Below are positions 34,338 to 64,000 of a stretch of 64,000 nucleotides of DNA, piece by piece; position 1 is the first letter of the stretch, and every line of letters starts with the position of its first letter. The position numbers were made by a program, and so were the translations under genes. The stretch is from Kribbella amoyensis (GTDB taxonomy: Bacteria > Actinomycetota > Actinomycetes > Propionibacteriales > Kribbellaceae). The notes below the pieces were generated by a model. It made no database searches, was not told the origin of the DNA, and saw only the letters and a list, made by a program, of their open reading frames with translations. The DNA is taken from the NCBI RefSeq assembly GCF_007828865.1, contig NZ_VIVK01000001.1:682001-746000 (forward strand), written 5' to 3'.

Positions 34338-34934
34338 CTTTGTGCACATGCCGGTCGCCACCGGGCCCCAGCGGCAGCCGCTGCGTGCACAAACTCGCCT
34401 CGCCGAAGCTGGAGCAAGCGCGGCACAGGTACCAGCAGCGTCTTTGTGCACGCATCGCTCGTGCCCAGACCCCAGCGGCGGCTGGTGGGTGCACAAAGTC
34501 GCCTCGCCGAAGCTGGAGCAAGCGCGGCCGGGGTACCAGCAGCCTCTTTGTGCACGCACCGGTCGTGCCCAGACCCCAGCCGCGGCTGGTGGATGCACAA
34601 AGTCGCCTCGCTCAAGCGGAGCTAAGCGCGGCACGGGTACCAGCAGCCTCTTTGTGCACATGCCGGCCACGACGAGGCCCCAGCGGCGGCCGCTGCGTGC
34701 ACAAAGTCGCTTCGCCGAAGCGGGAGCAAGCGCGGCACAGGTACCAACAGCGCCTTTGTGCACGCATCGCTCGTGCCCAGACCCCAGCCGCGGCTGGTGG
34801 GTGCACAAAGTCGCCTCGCCGAAGCTGGAGCAACCGGGGCACAGGTACCAGCAGCGTCTTTGTGCACGCATCGCTAGTGCTCACACCCCGGCCGCGGCTG
34901 GTGGGTGCACAAAGTCGCCTCGCCGAAGCGGGCA
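34338..34934. repeat. Tandem array of 104-bp repeats, 5.7 copies
   Basis: CTTTGTGCAC starts at 34338, 34442, 34546, 34650, 34754 and 34858: five exact 104-nt steps, the last copy ending near 34934. Each unit holds an inverted pair, CTTTGTGCAC and GTGCACAAAG, about 36 nt apart, followed by TCGCCTCGCCGAAGC and ending in GGTACCAGCAG. Copies differ at roughly one base in eight, mostly in the segment between the arms. The period is not a multiple of three, so the long open frames across it are accidental. The array fills the gap between nuoA and the lipoprotein gene; nothing else was found there. It shares its core with the array at 63.2-64 kb. Confidence 0.92.
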
Positions 34935-34955
34935 GGGGTGAGCGCGGGGTGCGGG

Positions 34956-35032
34956 GTGCGCGGGTGCGGCGTGCGCGGGTGCGGCGTGCGCGGGTGCGGC
35001 GTGCGCGGGTGCGCGGGTGCGGCGTGCGCGGC
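34956..35032. repeat. 15-bp minisatellite
   Basis: The unit GTGCGCGGGTGCGGC is repeated head to tail at 34956, 34971 and 34986, then once more from 35001 with an 8-bp internal duplication (GTGCGCGG), and a partial copy from 35024. It lies between the 104-bp array and the end of the lipoprotein gene; pure G/C/T, probably a replication-slippage product. Confidence 0.85.
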
Positions 35033-35063
35033 AGCGGGTGGGGGGTGAGGTGCAGCAGGTGGG

Positions 35064-35867
35064 TCAGTTGGTGCAGAGGAGCATGGCGTCGAGGGCTACT
35101 TGGGGGCCGTAGCCGGAGCGGATGTCGGCTACCTGGAGGCGGAGGCGGTTGGTGCCGAGGATCTTGCGGTTGAGCCAGGTCTCGGTTTCCTGTGCCTGGT
35201 CGACGGTGCCGAGGACCGTGGTGCCGTTCAGCAGTGACACCCGGACCGTGCCGTCGGTGATGTTGCCGAGCCAGTTCTTCACCCAGGAGCAGCCGGCCGT
35301 GTTCACGTCGCCCCAGACCACGCCGCCCTTGTCGGCGAGCAGTTCGGCCTCCGCGCGCCGGGGTGCGTCGGCCGGCGGGGACACGGTGAATGTCGGGCGG
35401 CCCTTCCCACCCGAGGCGAGCAGCGGCTTCTTGAACATCCCGCGCCACACGTAGTGATGGAAACCGGTCGGTGCCGAGGCGGCCGCGGCGTACGGCGCTT
35501 GCGGGCCGATCGCCAGCCGGTACGTGCGGATCGAGCCGGGCTGGTTCGAGGAGACGGTGACCGTGCTTCCGGTCGACGCGGCGTGACCGATCTCCTGCCA
35601 GCCGGCGGTCGCGGACCAGCGCTGCAAGGCGATCCTGGATCCGGGGGCCGGGGCCGGGGTCAGTGTGCCGGTGACGGTGAGCGTGCCCTTGGTGTACTCC
35701 GTGGTGCGGATGCTGGTGATCTTCACCGCGCGGGACGCCGCCGCGTCACCGCTCTGCTGACTGCCGGTCAGACTCAGTGCGCTCTCCGCCGGTGCGACCG
35801 TGGCGGCGCAGCCGGTGAGCAGCAGGGTGGTGGACGCGACAAGACCGAGCAGAGGGCGCAGGCCCAT
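35064..35867 (-). CDS. Secreted lipoprotein with NPCBM-like C-terminal domain
   Basis: 267 residues from ATG 35865-35867 (GGGAG 8 nt upstream). The signal peptide ends in the lipobox LLTGCA, Cys about residue 19. An Ig-like segment follows (GTLTVTGTLTPAPAPGSRIALQRW-type region near 55-80, with GWQEIGHA), and the last 120 residues look like a sugar-binding jelly roll: TAGCSWVKNWLGNITDGTVRVSLLNG and ILGTNRLRLQVAD, reminiscent of NPCBM domains. Two Cys (WGDVNTAGC and the penultimate LLCTN) could pair. Anchored outside the membrane; likely binds carbohydrate, but no enzyme motif is present. Divergent from korA. Confidence 0.82.
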   Translation of the reverse strand: MGLRPLLGLVASTTLLLTGCAATVAPAESALSLTGSQQSGDAAASRAVKITSIRTTEYTKGTLTVTGTLTPAPAPGSRIALQRWSATAGWQEIGHAASTGSTVTVSSNQPGSIRTYRLAIGPQAPYAAAASAPTGFHHYVWRGMFKKPLLASGGKGRPTFTVSPPADAPRRAEAELLADKGGVVWGDVNTAGCSWVKNWLGNITDGTVRVSLLNGTTVLGTVDQAQETETWLNRKILGTNRLRLQVADIRSGYGPQVALDAMLLCTN

Positions 35868-36055
35868 GGTGAAAACTCCCTCGAGACCGGGGCGAATCCC
35901 GGGTTGATCACAACTTGATGAAGACACCATGCCGGGTCTCGCTGCGGAAGGCAAGCGAGCGACTCCGGACCGTCACACTGGAAGGTTGACCCGCCTGGTT
36001 CCACGTCCCCGTCCCAGGCTGTGGACCTCCAGGGCTTCCGCATGGTTCCGTACTA

Positions 36056-54708: not shown

Positions 54709-56880
54709 TCAGCGGTTCGGGCGTTGGTTTTCGATTTCCTGGACCAGGTCGGTGACCAGGGTTTGCAGGGGGATCGGGTCGGGGTCGCCGAGTGATTCGA
54801 CGTGGTCGAAGTCGGCTTCCAGGACGAGGTTGTCGATGCGGACCACGAGGGAGACGCCGCGGGTGTCCTCGGAGTCGATCGAGCCGTCGAAGCCATGGCG
54901 GATGGCCTGGTCGCCGAGATCGACCGTGGCCACGGTCTCGTCGTCCTTCTCCGCCGACGACTTCGCCCCACCGATCCGGCGAGCCGCCGAGCGCGAGCTG
55001 TCGTACATCCGGAGGTACGCTCCGACTCCCGCGGCACTGTCGCCACTCCGCTCCCACTCGCACCTGGAGGAGCCCTCGCCCTTGTATCCGTCCTGTGAGC
55101 GCTGGTCCGGGATGAGCTCGGCGATGCGCTTGGTGGTCAGGACCTTCGACTCACAGAGGTTGGGCACGGTGGTGAAGTCGTCGCGGCCCTCGATGTAGCG
55201 CACGATGGTCAGGCCTCCGACCAGGGCCGGGATCACCAGCGCGGCGGCTGTCGTCGTCACCGGGGCCCAGGGCTTGCGGGGTTCGCCTGGGCCGCCGGAG
55301 GTCGCGAGCCAGATGGCGATGATGCCGCGCAGAGCGGCCAGCAGGACGATGAGGCCGGCGCCGACGAGGGCCACCATGACGTAGTTGCCGTCGAAGAACT
55401 CCCGACCGTTCTCCTCCACGCCCCAGCAGACGAGGACACCGATCGCGAGGCCGACCACGAACCCCGCGGCCCCGGCCCCTCGGACGGCCGTGGTCGCCCG
55501 GCCGAGGCGGTCCGCCGGTACCAGGCGCCGACGCGTCGCCCGGGCCGTCCGGCTCCACACCATGTACGACACCAGCGCGACGCCCGCGAGAATCGCGGCG
55601 CCGATCGGCCGGGCCGGCTCCACGGTGAGACCGGCCGCGACAAGCGACTCGCCCATCAGCAGCACACTGATGCCGAGCGTTCTGGACCAGCCGAGCCAGC
55701 GCCCCAGGACGGGAGCCAGGAGCGAACCGATCCCGCCCCCGAGAACGATCGCCAGTACCAAGACCACGGCGATCCATGGCGGCATCCCGTCGGCCAGGCT
55801 GAAGGAGATCAGCCCGCACAACACCCCGAATGCCCCGATCAACGCGGCGCCCTGCCAAAGCAGCGCACGCAGTACCGGGTGGCGCGGGTCGTACGGCCCG
55901 TCTGGCGGCGGCGCGTGCTCAGCCGCCTTCGGCCCGGGCGGGGTGGCTCCGGGCGGGGTGGCTCCGGGTGGCATCACCCGGGTGGAGCCGCCTCGGCCGA
56001 AACGCTCGGTCGGCTGGTCCGGGCCGGCCATCCGCGCAGTGGGCTGCTCGAAAGTCGGGTAGCCCCCGGCAACGTTCTGCAATTGCTGCAGGGCCGTGTC
56101 CGCATCCCAACGCTGCGCCGGGTCGCGTTCCATCAGGCCCGCGATGATCGGCGCCAGCGGACCGGCTTGCCTCGGCGGCGCCGGATCCCGGGTCAGAACC
56201 GCAGCGATCATCGCCGGCAGATCCTCGTAGTCGTAGGCGTTGTGGCCCTCCACCGCGAAGTACAGCGTCGCGCCCACCGCCCACAGATCCGCCGCCGGGC
56301 CGGGGTCAGCGCCGGAGAGTCGCTCGGGCGCGACGTACCCAAGGGTGCCGGTGACGATGCCGGTACCGGTCAGGGTGCGGGTGGCGCCGGCGACAGACGC
56401 GATCCCGAAGTCGGTGAGCATCCAGCGGTGGTCGCCACCGAGCATCACGTTCTGCGGTTTCACGTCCCGATGCAGGACGCCGCTGGCGTGCGCGACCTTC
56501 AGCGCCTCGAGCAACCGGACCCCGAGTTCGGCGGCGCGCCGCGGACTCATCGGCCCGTCGGCGCGGATCGTCTGGTCGAGCGACCGCCCCGGCAGCAGCC
56601 GCATCACGATCCATGGCGAACCGGCCTCGTCCACCACGTCGTGAATCGTGACGATCCCGGGGTGGTCGAGACCGGCGGCGGCCCGCGCCTCGCGCAACGC
56701 CCGCTCGCGCATCCGATTGGTCTCCGCCGGATTCAAGCCGGCCGGGATCCGCAGTTCCTTCACCGCGACCTCGCGGTGCAGCACGGTGTCGAAGGCCCGC
56801 CAGACGGTTCCCATCCCGCCGATCCCCAACGGTGGCTCATTGAGGACGTACCGGCCGTTCGCCACCGTGCGCTCGTTCAC
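54709..56880 (-). CDS. Ser/Thr protein kinase with polytopic membrane and extracytoplasmic domains (copy A)
   Basis: 723 residues from GTG 56878-56880. Kinase domain (11-275): glycine loop GIGGMGTVW, Lys41 in VAVKEL, catalytic HRDVKPQN near 139, DFG in LTDFGIAS near 158, GTLGYVAPE activation segment with Thr-rich RTLTGTGIVTG before it. A Pro-rich juxtamembrane linker contains PPGATPPGATPPG. About seven membrane helices follow (residues 345-575), unlike the single helix of PknB-type kinases, and then an outside domain of about 140 residues with LCESK and RCEWE (a possible disulfide) resembling DUF3558 lipoproteins. Probably a receptor-like kinase. Duplicate of the next gene upstream; preceded by TAGGGT 6 nt before the GTG. 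Confidence 0.9.
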   Translation of the reverse strand: MNERTVANGRYVLNEPPLGIGGMGTVWRAFDTVLHREVAVKELRIPAGLNPAETNRMRERALREARAAAGLDHPGIVTIHDVVDEAGSPWIVMRLLPGRSLDQTIRADGPMSPRRAAELGVRLLEALKVAHASGVLHRDVKPQNVMLGGDHRWMLTDFGIASVAGATRTLTGTGIVTGTLGYVAPERLSGADPGPAADLWAVGATLYFAVEGHNAYDYEDLPAMIAAVLTRDPAPPRQAGPLAPIIAGLMERDPAQRWDADTALQQLQNVAGGYPTFEQPTARMAGPDQPTERFGRGGSTRVMPPGATPPGATPPGPKAAEHAPPPDGPYDPRHPVLRALLWQGAALIGAFGVLCGLISFSLADGMPPWIAVVLVLAIVLGGGIGSLLAPVLGRWLGWSRTLGISVLLMGESLVAAGLTVEPARPIGAAILAGVALVSYMVWSRTARATRRRLVPADRLGRATTAVRGAGAAGFVVGLAIGVLVCWGVEENGREFFDGNYVMVALVGAGLIVLLAALRGIIAIWLATSGGPGEPRKPWAPVTTTAAALVIPALVGGLTIVRYIEGRDDFTTVPNLCESKVLTTKRIAELIPDQRSQDGYKGEGSSRCEWERSGDSAAGVGAYLRMYDSSRSAARRIGGAKSSAEKDDETVATVDLGDQAIRHGFDGSIDSEDTRGVSLVVRIDNLVLEADFDHVESLGDPDPIPLQTLVTDLVQEIENQRPNR

Positions 56881-56952: not shown

Positions 56953-59109
56953 TCAGCGCTTGATCTCCTCGACCAGGTCGGCGGCCAGCGCCTGCAACGC
57001 GTCCGGAGCGGGCGCGCCGAGTGATTCCGCCCGCTCGTACCCGACTTCCAGGACGAGGTTGTCGACGCGGACGGTGACGGAGGTACCGCGAGTGTCCACG
57101 GAGTCGATCGAATCGTCGAAGCTGCAACGGATGGCTTCGTCGCCGAGGTCGAGCCCGACGACCGACTCGTTCTCGCTTTCCGCCGACGACCTCTCCCTGC
57201 TGAGGCTGGAATGGGCATCGCGGGAGTCGTCGTACTGGCTGAGGGAGACGTCCAGCCTGGCGGCGTCGTCGCCCGTCTTCGACCAGCGACAACCGATGTT
57301 CGAGGGGTCAAGAGTCCTGTCCACGCTGGGCGGATCCGGCATGACCTTGGCGATGCGCTCCTTCGTCACGATGTTCGGGGTGCAGATGTCGGGGGCCGTG
57401 GTGAAGTCGTCCCGGCTGTCGAGGGATCGAGCGGCAACCACAGCCCCGACGAGCACCGGGACCAGGAGTGCGCAGGCGGTGGTGGCGGCCGCCGCCCACC
57501 GCCTCCGCGGTTCGGTCGCCGACGCTTTCCGGAGGGCGCGAATTCCCCAGAGCGCGACCAACGTCACGGCGACGCCGGCCCCCACCAGTACCGTGCCGAT
57601 GTAGTTGCCGTCGAGCTCCTGCGGGTACCTCGCCTGGTACCAACAGACGGCGCCGCTCAGCCCGAAGCCGACGACCGCCCCCACGAACCCGGTCCAGATT
57701 GCGGTCGTGGAAGCGCGAGCAACACCCATCCGCCGATGTTGTGCATAAGCCAGCGGATGCCACATCATGAACGCCGCGATGGACAGGCAGGAGAAGACGC
57801 CGAGGACGAGGAGGCTGCCCGGTGCCGTCATGAGACCGGCAGCGAGGAGCGATTCGCCCATCAGCAGTGCGCTCGCACCAAGCGTCCTCCACGTGCCCAG
57901 CCGGCCCGCCACGAAAGGCGCCAGTGCCACGCCGATACCACCGCTGACCACGAGCGCCACTACCGCGCCGCCGGAGAGCCGGACGATCGGCAGCCCGTCG
58001 AGATGGCTGGCGACGATCAGCGCCAGCATCGCCCCGACCGCCGCGTTCAGCACAAACCCTTGCCAGAGCAGCACACGACGGTTTCGGCCGTACTCCCCGA
58101 CCGGCTCGGCCGCAGGATCACCCGGGGTGGCACCGGGCGAGTTGGCGCCTGGTGGGGTAGTCCCGGACGAGTTGGCGCCAGGTGGGGTAGCGCCGGGTGG
58201 CATCACTCGGGTGGAGCCGTCGCCGGCGAAGCGCTCGGTCGGCTGGTCGGGGCCCGCCATCCGCGCGGTGGGCTGCTCGAAGGTCGGGTAGCCGCCGGCA
58301 ACGTTCTGCAGGTGCCGTAAGGCCGTGTCGGTATCCCAGCGTCGGGCCGGGTCGCGCTCCATCAGCCCCGCGATGATCGGCGCCAGCGGACCGGCGTGCT
58401 TCGGCGGGGCCGGATCGCGGGTCAGCACCGCGGCGATCATGGCCGGCATGTCGTCATGGTCGAAGGCGCCCCGGCCCTCCACCGCGTAGTACAGCGTTGC
58501 GCCCACCGCCCACAGGTCCGCCGCCGGGCCGAACTCAGCGCCGGACAGCCGCTCGGGCGCGACGTACCCGAGCGTGCCGGTCACCATGCCGGTACCGGTC
58601 AGCGTCCGGGTGGCGCCGGCGATCGACGCGATCCCGAAGTCGGTGAGCATCCAGCGGTCGTCGCCACCGAGCATCACGTTCTGCGGCTTCACGTCCCGGT
58701 GCAGCACGCCTTTCGCATGGGCCGCGGTCAGGGCCTCGAGCAACCGGATGCCGAGCTCCGCGGCGCGTCGCGGACTCAACGGCCCGTCCGCTGCAACCGC
58801 CTGGTCCAGCGACCGGCCGGGCAGCAGCCGCATCACGATCCACGGCTGGCCCGCTTCGTCCACCACGTCATAGATCGTGACGATCCCGGGGTGATCGAGA
58901 CCGGCGGCGGCCCGCGCCTCGCGCAACGCCCGCTCGCGCAACCGATCGCGCTCGGCCGGGTTCAGGCCGTCCGGGATCCGTAGCTCCTTCACGGCGACCT
59001 CGCGGTGCAGGACCGTGTCGAACGCCTTCCAGACCGTGCCCATCCCGCCGATCCCCAATGGTGGCTCGCTGAGGACGTACCGGCCGTTCGCCACCGTGCG
59101 CTCGTTCAC
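56953..59109 (-). CDS. Ser/Thr protein kinase with polytopic membrane and extracytoplasmic domains (copy B)
   Basis: 718 residues from GTG 59107-59109. The kinase domain is nearly the same as copy A (GIGGMGTVW, VAVKELRIP, HRDVKPQN, LTDFGIAS, GTLGYVAPERLSGA), down to many synonymous stretches, so the duplication is fairly recent or homogenised. The linker has a longer repeat of GA[TN]xPG units. The seven membrane helices and the extracytoplasmic domain (DICTPNIV, GCRWSKTG Cys pair; GDEAIRCSF) diverge much more, as if the two receptors sense different ligands. Divergent promoter region with the Rrf2 gene, 95 nt between starts. Copy A begins 72 nt after its stop. Confidence 0.9.
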   Translation of the reverse strand: MNERTVANGRYVLSEPPLGIGGMGTVWKAFDTVLHREVAVKELRIPDGLNPAERDRLRERALREARAAAGLDHPGIVTIYDVVDEAGQPWIVMRLLPGRSLDQAVAADGPLSPRRAAELGIRLLEALTAAHAKGVLHRDVKPQNVMLGGDDRWMLTDFGIASIAGATRTLTGTGMVTGTLGYVAPERLSGAEFGPAADLWAVGATLYYAVEGRGAFDHDDMPAMIAAVLTRDPAPPKHAGPLAPIIAGLMERDPARRWDTDTALRHLQNVAGGYPTFEQPTARMAGPDQPTERFAGDGSTRVMPPGATPPGANSSGTTPPGANSPGATPGDPAAEPVGEYGRNRRVLLWQGFVLNAAVGAMLALIVASHLDGLPIVRLSGGAVVALVVSGGIGVALAPFVAGRLGTWRTLGASALLMGESLLAAGLMTAPGSLLVLGVFSCLSIAAFMMWHPLAYAQHRRMGVARASTTAIWTGFVGAVVGFGLSGAVCWYQARYPQELDGNYIGTVLVGAGVAVTLVALWGIRALRKASATEPRRRWAAAATTACALLVPVLVGAVVAARSLDSRDDFTTAPDICTPNIVTKERIAKVMPDPPSVDRTLDPSNIGCRWSKTGDDAARLDVSLSQYDDSRDAHSSLSRERSSAESENESVVGLDLGDEAIRCSFDDSIDSVDTRGTSVTVRVDNLVLEVGYERAESLGAPAPDALQALAADLVEEIKR

Positions 59110-62803: not shown

Positions 62804-63238
62804 ATGATTCGTGAGGCTCGGCCGGCGGACTACGCCGCGATCATGCGGCTGTACCAGGAACTGCATCCCAACGACCCGGTACCGCGGGACGCCGCCGACG
62901 TCTTCACGCGGATCCTCAACTCACCCGGGCTCCACCTGTTCGTCCTCGAACTCGACGGTGACGTCGTCGCCTCGACGTACCTGAACGTGATCCCCAACCT
63001 CACCCGCGCAGCCGCCCCGTACGCCGTCGTCGAGAACGTCATCGTCACCACGGCTCGTCGCGGCACCGGCCTCGGCAAGCAACTCATGGCCGCCACCCTC
63101 CAAGCAGCCTGGGACGCCGGCTGCTACAAGGTCATGCTCGCGACGGGATCCCAAAAGCCCTCAACCCACGCCTTCTACCGCGCCTGCGGCTTCTCCCCCC
63201 ACGAGAAAACCGCCTACCTCGCCAAAACCCACCCCTAA
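62804..63238 (+). CDS. GNAT family N-acetyltransferase
   Basis: 144 residues. GNAT motif A is VVENVIVTTARRGTGLGKQLMAATL near 75-99, with the acetyl-CoA pyrophosphate loop RRGTGLGK; motif B includes HAFYRACGFSPHEKTAYLAK near 122-140. The N-terminus MIREARPADYAAIMRLYQEL is typical. Acetylates a small molecule or peptide amine in the cytoplasm; substrate unknown. TAAGCT ends 7 nt before the ATG and there is no ribosome site: leaderless. Divergent from the CPT-like gene. Confidence 0.88.
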   Translation: MIREARPADYAAIMRLYQELHPNDPVPRDAADVFTRILNSPGLHLFVLELDGDVVASTYLNVIPNLTRAAAPYAVVENVIVTTARRGTGLGKQLMAATLQAAWDAGCYKVMLATGSQKPSTHAFYRACGFSPHEKTAYLAKTHP

Positions 63239-64000
63239 CCGGCCTCCCCGGCCCTCCCCTCCCCTACCCGACCCCACTTTGAGCACCCACCAGCCACATC
63301 CGTCCGCCATCCCCGACCACCCCGCGCCCACGACCTTGAGCACACACCAGCCACCGACCGCCCGTAGCCCCACCTGGTACATGCACAAAGTCGCCCGCAA
63401 CCCCAACCCAGCACCCGCTCACCCCCCCCAGCACTCGCGCATCCCCCTGCCACCCCCGGACTTTGAGCACCCACCAGCCACACCAGCTCCTCGGTGACGA
63501 CCGCTCCGCGCACAAGGTCCGAACCACCGCCGACCTTGTGCACCACCCAGTCGAACTCCCCACGCCGAACTGACCAACCGGCGCACAAAGTCGCCCCCAC
63601 CCCAGCACCCGGTCGGACCTCGTCCGCTCGCGCTTCCTCCCCCGGCAACGCCGCGACCACCGAGACCCAGGGGGCCGACCGGCCACCCCGGACTTTGAGC
63701 ACCCACCAGCCACACCAGCTCGTTCGTAGCGACCGCTCCGTGCACAAGGAACTGAGCACCGCCGACCTTGTGCACCAACCGGCCGAACTCCCCCACGCCG
63801 AACTGACCAACCGGCGCACAAAGTCGCCCCCACCCCCAGCCCAACACCCGCCCCCCAGCTACTCACGCCTCCCCTGCCACCCCCGGACTTTGAGCACCCA
63901 CCAGCCACACCAGCTCCTCGGTGACGACCGCTCCGCGCACAAGGTCCGAACCACCGTCAACCTTGTGCACCACCCAGTCGAACTCCCCACGCCGAACTGA
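63239..64000. repeat. Interspersed repeat array related to the 104-bp array, runs off the window
   Basis: No gene seen in these 762 nt. A module A (GGACTTTGAGCACCCACCAG..., then about 35 nt, then CGCACAAGGTC) recurs at 63458, 63690 and 63885, with imperfect copies at 63275 and 63333. It alternates with module B (ACCTTGTGCACCACC..., ending CGGCGCACAAAGTCGCC). Copies at 63458 and 63885 are nearly identical over 115 nt. The core CTTTG[TA]GCACCCACCAGCC is the same as in the minus strand of the array at 34338-34934. Long open frames in all registers here are compositional. Confidence 0.88.

Follow-up and report, generated by a model that had tools for sequence, protein, structure and literature searches.

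Two arrays in the window, by which we mean the whole stretch of 64,000 nucleotides of Kribbella amoyensis DNA analysed here, are built from one 57-bp inverted repeat that recurs throughout the host genome and its genus. The conserved features of this element are its outer stem, the complementarity of its inner arms and its total length of 57 bp, and not the sequence of its core. The first-pass annotation had proposed a genome-wide family of extragenic palindromic repeats with an evolution of its own, and pattern and covariance-model scans bear this out both genome-wide and genus-wide, with copies mostly outside called genes and with subfamilies of the family's own. We see an even chance that these are short, non-autonomous mobile elements that would form hairpins and work in the manner of REP sequences or MITEs.

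Structure of the element and its arrays in the window

The element consists of CYTTGNGCRC, 37 bp and GYGCNCAARG, and what had been annotated as a core is its left half. As claimed, this core is common to both arrays: with up to three mismatches, CTTTGWGCACCCACCAGCC occurs 12 times in the window, all within 34480-34914 and 63277-63906, against a mean of 0.02 in shuffled sequences. The second motif had been placed about 35 nt after the core; the actual distance is 28 nt from the core end, in a unit of 57 bp. From the ends inwards, the element has an outer stem of 10 bp, often lengthened by 1-3 bp, a weakly paired step of 3 nt, an inner stem of 7 bp that varies in sequence and keeps its complementarity across the family, and a middle of 17 nt with variable sequence and near-constant length. 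The window holds 12 complete copies (six per array), one partial copy and one cut at the window end, as follows.

34338-34394, minus strand: 57-bp element, array 1 copy 1 (profile 49.1 bits)
34442-34498, minus strand: 57-bp element, array 1 copy 2 (profile 63.6 bits)
34546-34602, minus strand: 57-bp element, array 1 copy 3 (profile 54.8 bits)
34650-34706, minus strand: 57-bp element, array 1 copy 4 (profile 62.2 bits)
34754-34810, minus strand: 57-bp element, array 1 copy 5 (profile 61.2 bits)
34858-34914, minus strand: 57-bp element, array 1 copy 6 (profile 58.9 bits)
63277-63333, plus strand: partial or degenerate element opening array 2, left end intact, right end unrecognisable (model match 63280-63330, 28.9 bits)
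63334-63390, plus strand: 57-bp element, array 2 (profile 40.5 bits)
63461-63517, plus strand: 57-bp element, array 2, module A (profile 58.9 bits)
63534-63590, plus strand: 57-bp element, array 2, module B, 16 bp after the preceding copy (profile 58.5 bits)
63693-63749, plus strand: 57-bp element, array 2, module A (profile 46.3 bits)
63766-63823, plus strand: 58-bp element, array 2, module B (profile 54.8 bits)
63888-63944, plus strand: 57-bp element, array 2, module A (profile 58.9 bits)
63961-64000, plus strand: 57-bp element, module B, cut by the window end (whole in the genome at G000:C1:745961-746017)

The resemblance between the arrays is not a short chance similarity, since a 63-bp profile, built partly from host-genome copies including some from these two arrays, gave the 12 complete copies 40.5-63.6 bits (better strand) and nothing outside the arrays more than 12.1 bits. 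Array 1 (34338-34914) contains six units with a period of 104 bp and the core on the minus strand. Its neighbours, as called by a crude composition script written for this analysis, are a gene without a Pfam domain (35064-35954, minus) and a NuoA-like gene (PF00507, 33809-34222, minus); by the same script, array 2 is bordered by a GNAT acetyltransferase gene, whose end lies at 63238, and by a polyprenyl synthetase gene in convergent orientation. Array 2 runs from 63277 to 17 bp beyond the window end and comprises six complete units together with the partial one and the one cut by the end. It had been described as two alternating modules spaced at 232 and 195 nt. These spacings hold both for module A, at 63461, 63693 and 63888, and for module B, at 63534, 63766 and 63961. 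Each of the two modules is a copy of the same 57-bp element, with 16 bp between them. A blastn search found no match to array 2 in plasmids.

Other repeats were seen in the same DNA. A GC-rich tandem repeat of 15 bp with about seven copies (34942-35047) directly adjoins array 1, a perfect 15-bp tandem repeat with 2.3 copies lies at 55934-55968, and a 30-bp tandem repeat with 2.5 copies at 58124-58197. Past array 2 (L162:1010-1400), the plus strand of the intergenic region turns from C-rich to G-rich, with simple GGCGCGGCG-like repeats.

The length of the element is nearly invariant. When 33-63 bp were permitted, the host genome gave 29 distinct places, of which 27 measured exactly 57 bp, one 56 and one 58. 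Across 130 loci with 45-79 bp permitted, 253 of 284 inverted half-site pairs stood at 57 bp, a count in which loci overlap, some are counted repeatedly and most were fetched with a 56-58 bp pattern. Alignment A1, which held 76 copies before the removal of L102 and of one copy with too short a flank, brings together 74 copies of less than 75% mutual identity, and these align gap-free across 63 columns. The invariance of the outer stem is partly by construction, as the search patterns fixed most positions; at position 6, which was free, and at positions 2 and 9, which were half-free, both sides had changed in 8-9 copies each (A1). The arms include the types CACCAACC, ATCCGTACG, CGTGAGCG and GCTAGGC, several of them within one genome. 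The most common flanking bases among 59 host copies are C-C-G-A before and T-C-G-C after the element, and the A1 consensus ends are CGA...TCG.

Distribution, gene context and signs of mobility

The first-pass annotation had suggested scanning the genome and its relatives. The host genome, with 8.12 Mb in 8 contigs, has 70 matches to CYTTGNGCRCN{36,38}GYGCNCAARG and no match to the reversed control. The same pattern occurs at least once in 31 of 38 Kribbella genomes, the host included (range 0-157), with one reversed-control match each in two of the 38. Covariance model R1, which was built partly from these genomes and whose per-genome counts include both strands and up to 140 scored candidates, gave matches at E ≤0.001 in 35 of the 38, host included; four genomes (G013, G028, G031, G037) had just 1-3 matches each, and three (G010, G011, G019) had none at this threshold. 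The 11-mer ACTTTGTGCAC has 55 exact sites in the host, 54 near other copies and one (C4:21635) alone.

We also searched 84,980 species with the strict pattern CTTTGTGCRCN{36,38}GYGCACAAAG. Of the 83 stretches recovered, 60 came from Kribbella, 14 from 'Streptomyces sp. SID13031', 8 from one Jatrophihabitans MAG and 1 from a Paracoccaceae MAG. SID13031 is probably a misnamed Kribbella relative, because alignments of its DNA with K. soli reach 83%. The Paracoccaceae match (L102) pairs weakly and was regarded as chance, and it was excluded from A1 and from the named-species gene-context count. Viral contigs yielded no stretch with the element.

Arrays are not confined to the window. At loci L138, L139 and L145 of genome G001, 57-bp elements follow one another with a period of about 70-73 bp and variable spacers of 13-16 bp, and in the G001 stretches a gap of 13-16 bp separates 22 of 25 neighbouring element pairs. 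A CRISPR-like reading of these arrays was rejected on account of the single copies found in G002 and of the self-complementary inner arms. At G000:C1:550587-550627 and 1061311-1061353, half-element ends of the same orientation stand 30-32 bp apart, as if they were truncated copies in arrays.

Most copies lie between genes. By the crude script's gene calls, 97 of 122 copies were between two genes, 15 inside genes and 10 at locus edges, and in named species 48 of 81 were between genes, 21 inside and 12 at edges. For 34 of 48 intergenic copies the closest gene edge is a 3' end, yet the sign of a preference for gene 3' ends is weak, since such ends already make up 59 of all 96 flanking edges. Compared with the numbers expected by bases, the 48 intergenic copies fall in convergent (15 vs 16.5), tandem (29 vs 22.1) and divergent (4 vs 9.3) regions.

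Sharp edges were visible in K. sindirgiensis, where three loci (L052, L086, L106) have in common the element and about 5 flanking bp and then diverge. At the L106 site, the same gene pair occurs without the element in G023 (K. soli), G025, G029 and G016. This was the single empty site aligned, and its intergenic flanks are too diverged for insertion edges or a target-site duplication to be read. The same species has a MITE-like unit of about 440 bp, flanked by CTAG and with TAGTGTCCTGCGCC ends, which holds two 57-bp elements in opposite orientation at these places:

L061:5541-5995, MITE-like unit, K. sindirgiensis
L068:1153-1594, MITE-like unit, K. sindirgiensis
L108:788-1227, MITE-like unit, K. 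sindirgiensis

Since some copies ride in this larger unit, part of the dispersal in K. sindirgiensis is not the element's own.

Arm pairing, strand bias and competing explanations

Across the family, the two arms of a copy are matched to each other. With a 23-pair hairpin laid on the 74 copies of A1, and with shuffles that take no account of relatedness among copies, paired cells reached 76.2% (67.9 ± 0.6 shuffled), doubly changed cells 232 (122.7 ± 7.4; none of 500 shuffles as high) and covariation 0.252 (0.131 ± 0.007, and at most 0.086 when the partner was slid). Two of the five measures showed no excess over shuffles, namely pairs with double changes (16 vs 15.3) and further pair types (45 vs 42.4). 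The signal was strongest at positions 14-18 in single-pair tests (z 3.8-5.9), and re-pairing the halves across 140 copies gave z = 12.0. In a copy set chosen by one arm consensus, the halves were near independence pair by pair, and oriented re-pairing gave 534 vs 511 ± 8.

Within single genomes and arm subfamilies, we ran 14 tests on sets of 4 to 9 copies; five gave a positive result, nine were flat or negative, and four further tests had too few copies. Pairs 11-20 covary in K. soli (z 3.8), K. sindirgiensis (3.0) and SID13031 (2.3) and are flat in Jatrophihabitans (1.4) and K. kalugense (0.7), while pairs 21-28 showed no covariation in any of the five sets. In the two arm subfamilies, pairs 11-14 gave z 2.7 (n=8) and 3.5 (n=5), and pairs 19-22 gave z -1.5 and 0.0. 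The copies of the host and of G001 are asymmetric. Oriented re-pairing found no covariation between their halves (z = 0.3 and -0.6), and in unoriented comparison their own halves match less well than re-paired halves (z = -2.2 and -3.8).

This independence of the halves in the host and G001 would fit a duplex binding site in which a dimeric DNA-binding protein, such as a nucleoid, regulatory or partition-like one, contacts two inverted half-sites of 20 bp set a constant distance apart, and the symmetry would reflect the dimer and not a hairpin. The constant spacing over a variable middle is consistent with such a site, as is the spacing of 13-16 bp between neighbours in G001 with its period of 70-73 bp. 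We nevertheless think it unlikely, because in K. soli, K. sindirgiensis and SID13031 the arms differ strongly among copies of one genome yet remain complementary within each copy, and because pairs 11-14 covary inside arm subfamilies. Perfect stems of 21-25 bp that extend into the middle, as found among others in L085, L092 and L101, also argue against it. The predicted folding of single-stranded DNA was strong for L101 (z -9.6) and L092 (-8.6), and the window copies reached just -1.2 to -3.2. The L092 copy (L092:1150-1206, K. soli) differs at two positions from one in K. pratensis (L097:3607-3663), with a 21-bp perfect stem, a conserved right flank and a poorly alignable left flank.

Orthologous sites give a view of change in place. 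In four groups (L084/L104/L114, L063/L065, L069/L076/L118 and L066/L101), the position and the length of 57 bp persist (one copy has 58 bp) and both arms change. Pairing is good in L104, L118 and L101, the last of which has a perfect stem of 23 bp and unrelated sequence, and imperfect in L084, L069/L076 and L066. Such joint change of arms and inner bases on both sides is what would be expected of quasi-palindromes without function or mobility of their own, kept symmetrical by template switching during replication and spread by tandem duplication and hitch-hiking, an account that also accommodates the tandem arrays and the copies carried in the K. sindirgiensis unit. It leaves unexplained, however, why a length of 57 bp is constant over unrelated arms and how the element by itself was dispersed to unrelated sites, and we regard it as decidedly unlikely.

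A third alternative, an RNA hairpin (for processing, stability or as a small RNA) transcribed from one strand, draws on the distribution of non-canonical pairs. In the host and G001, these pairs are G.U on one strand and A.C on the other, at 112 vs 20 and 73 vs 22 with orientation taken from other positions, so that G.U pairs gather on one strand. The RNAalifold consensus folds on this favoured strand only, with no pairs predicted for A1 as oriented, a result that is partly circular because the A1 rows were oriented by the same strand criterion. Against the RNA reading, neither the named species (minority strand 43 vs 49.0 ± 4.0) nor the 10 copies of G002 (5 vs 8.0 ± 1.7) show strand clumping, the favoured strand bears no relation to the sense of the closest gene 3' end (8 of 15 scored loci), and Rfam gave no match. 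Of the 19 loci on contig C1 whose sign is clear, the favoured strand follows the direction of replication in 14 (one-sided Fisher about 0.055, calculated by hand), a count that covers the pattern matches listed, all of them on C1, leaves out five ambiguous loci, places dnaA at 1.73 Mb and assumes the terminus opposite. The wobble strand is weaker as proof of RNA because it tends to follow replication direction, and the strand asymmetry is probably composition bias. Taken with these points, an RNA hairpin seems to us improbable. Two narrower RNA roles were rejected: a terminator, as CTTTG...CAAAG is the reverse of an A-tract/T-tract terminator, and a cis-acting RNA, as the strand is unrelated to gene sense.

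Candidate mobilisers and known repeat systems

A link to a RAYT-like transposase had been suggested for the family, and it did not survive the search. The domain PF01797 (Y1 transposase) is absent from the host genome and present in 1 of 38 genomes, and RAYT was therefore rejected as the mobiliser. The sole Y1 domain among the 38 lies in G007, in a 537-aa open frame at L171 (G007:C7:51482-51820). Among the neighbour genes scanned, a subset of the neighbour clusters, there was no recurrent mobile gene: the recurring families were LacI regulators and aldehyde dehydrogenases, and the single neighbours were GNAT, CNNM/CBS, an HTH regulator, a response regulator and an aldo/keto reductase.

On the best reading, the mobiliser would be a non-RAYT enzyme. 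Acting in trans, it would recognise the folded hairpin through the outer stem and measure its length, which would account for the fixed 57 bp, and it would move or copy the hairpin to intergenic places. Arrays, whose period is 104 bp in array 1, a composite 195-232 bp in array 2 and, in one species, mostly 70-73 bp, would grow by local duplication and afterwards decay, so that the halves would match poorly in array-rich genomes. In its most specific form, this proposal has an enzyme unrelated to RAYT/IS200 that would recognise the folded 57-nt hairpin by outer stem and length and accept any inner sequence if paired, leaving the arms to evolve freely in a fixed frame; we put it forward tentatively, as rather unlikely. 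The element provides a defined bait with which to find the protein or enzyme acting on it, and the genus offers a natural experiment, with model matches in 35 of 38 genomes (a few with just 1-3) and three genomes without.

The family had been taken to be undescribed, and our searches agree. Rfam 15 gave no match in the window at gathering scores and none up to E 1 in four loci, and we found no description of such repeats in Kribbella in the open-access literature. As far as searched, the family is uncatalogued.

MITEs are short derivatives of insertion sequences with terminal inverted repeats. The Kribbella element likewise has terminal inverted repeats (its ends being partly set by the search pattern), is apparently non-coding and is dispersed; unlike MITEs, it is very short and its interior changes at constant length. 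No parent element came to light among the neighbourhoods of the host ACTTTGTGCAC sites near other copies, and no target duplication could be read at the one aligned empty site. Integron attC sites act as a folded single strand with a conserved outer box, complementary variable arms and GTTRRRY/RYYYAAC boxes. The similar minimum length, the conserved outer part and the complementary variable arms recall the Kribbella element, whereas the GTTRRRY/RYYYAAC boxes are absent from its A1 consensus and its spacers are too short for gene cassettes.

Catalogues of short hairpin repeats in bacteria draw chiefly on other phyla, and many of these repeats are associated with RAYT transposases; the main text of the closest catalogue does not name Kribbella, Streptomyces, Frankia or Actinobacteria (PMC3733652). 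As in REP/REPIN-RAYT systems, the Kribbella repeats are short palindromes that lie mostly outside genes, are sometimes clustered, fall into lineage-specific subfamilies and can reach 100 or more copies. REPs, as presented in that catalogue, are 20-40 bp long, and in most of them one end bears a GTAG or CGTC tag (PMC3733652), whereas the Kribbella element is 57 bp long and has neither tetranucleotide at the palindrome end (59 host copies and the A1 consensus), and the RAYT domain occurs in only 1 of 38 genomes. The CGTC-tagged REPs are hairpin repeats described in the same text as lacking a dedicated transposase (PMC3733652), and no mobiliser was found for the Kribbella element either; it differs from them in the absent CGTC tag, the constant 57 bp and the variable arms. 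Set beside these systems, the Kribbella repeats form a populous, genus-wide actinobacterial family under a different rule: no RAYT, a fixed length, a fixed outer stem and arms that are free but paired.
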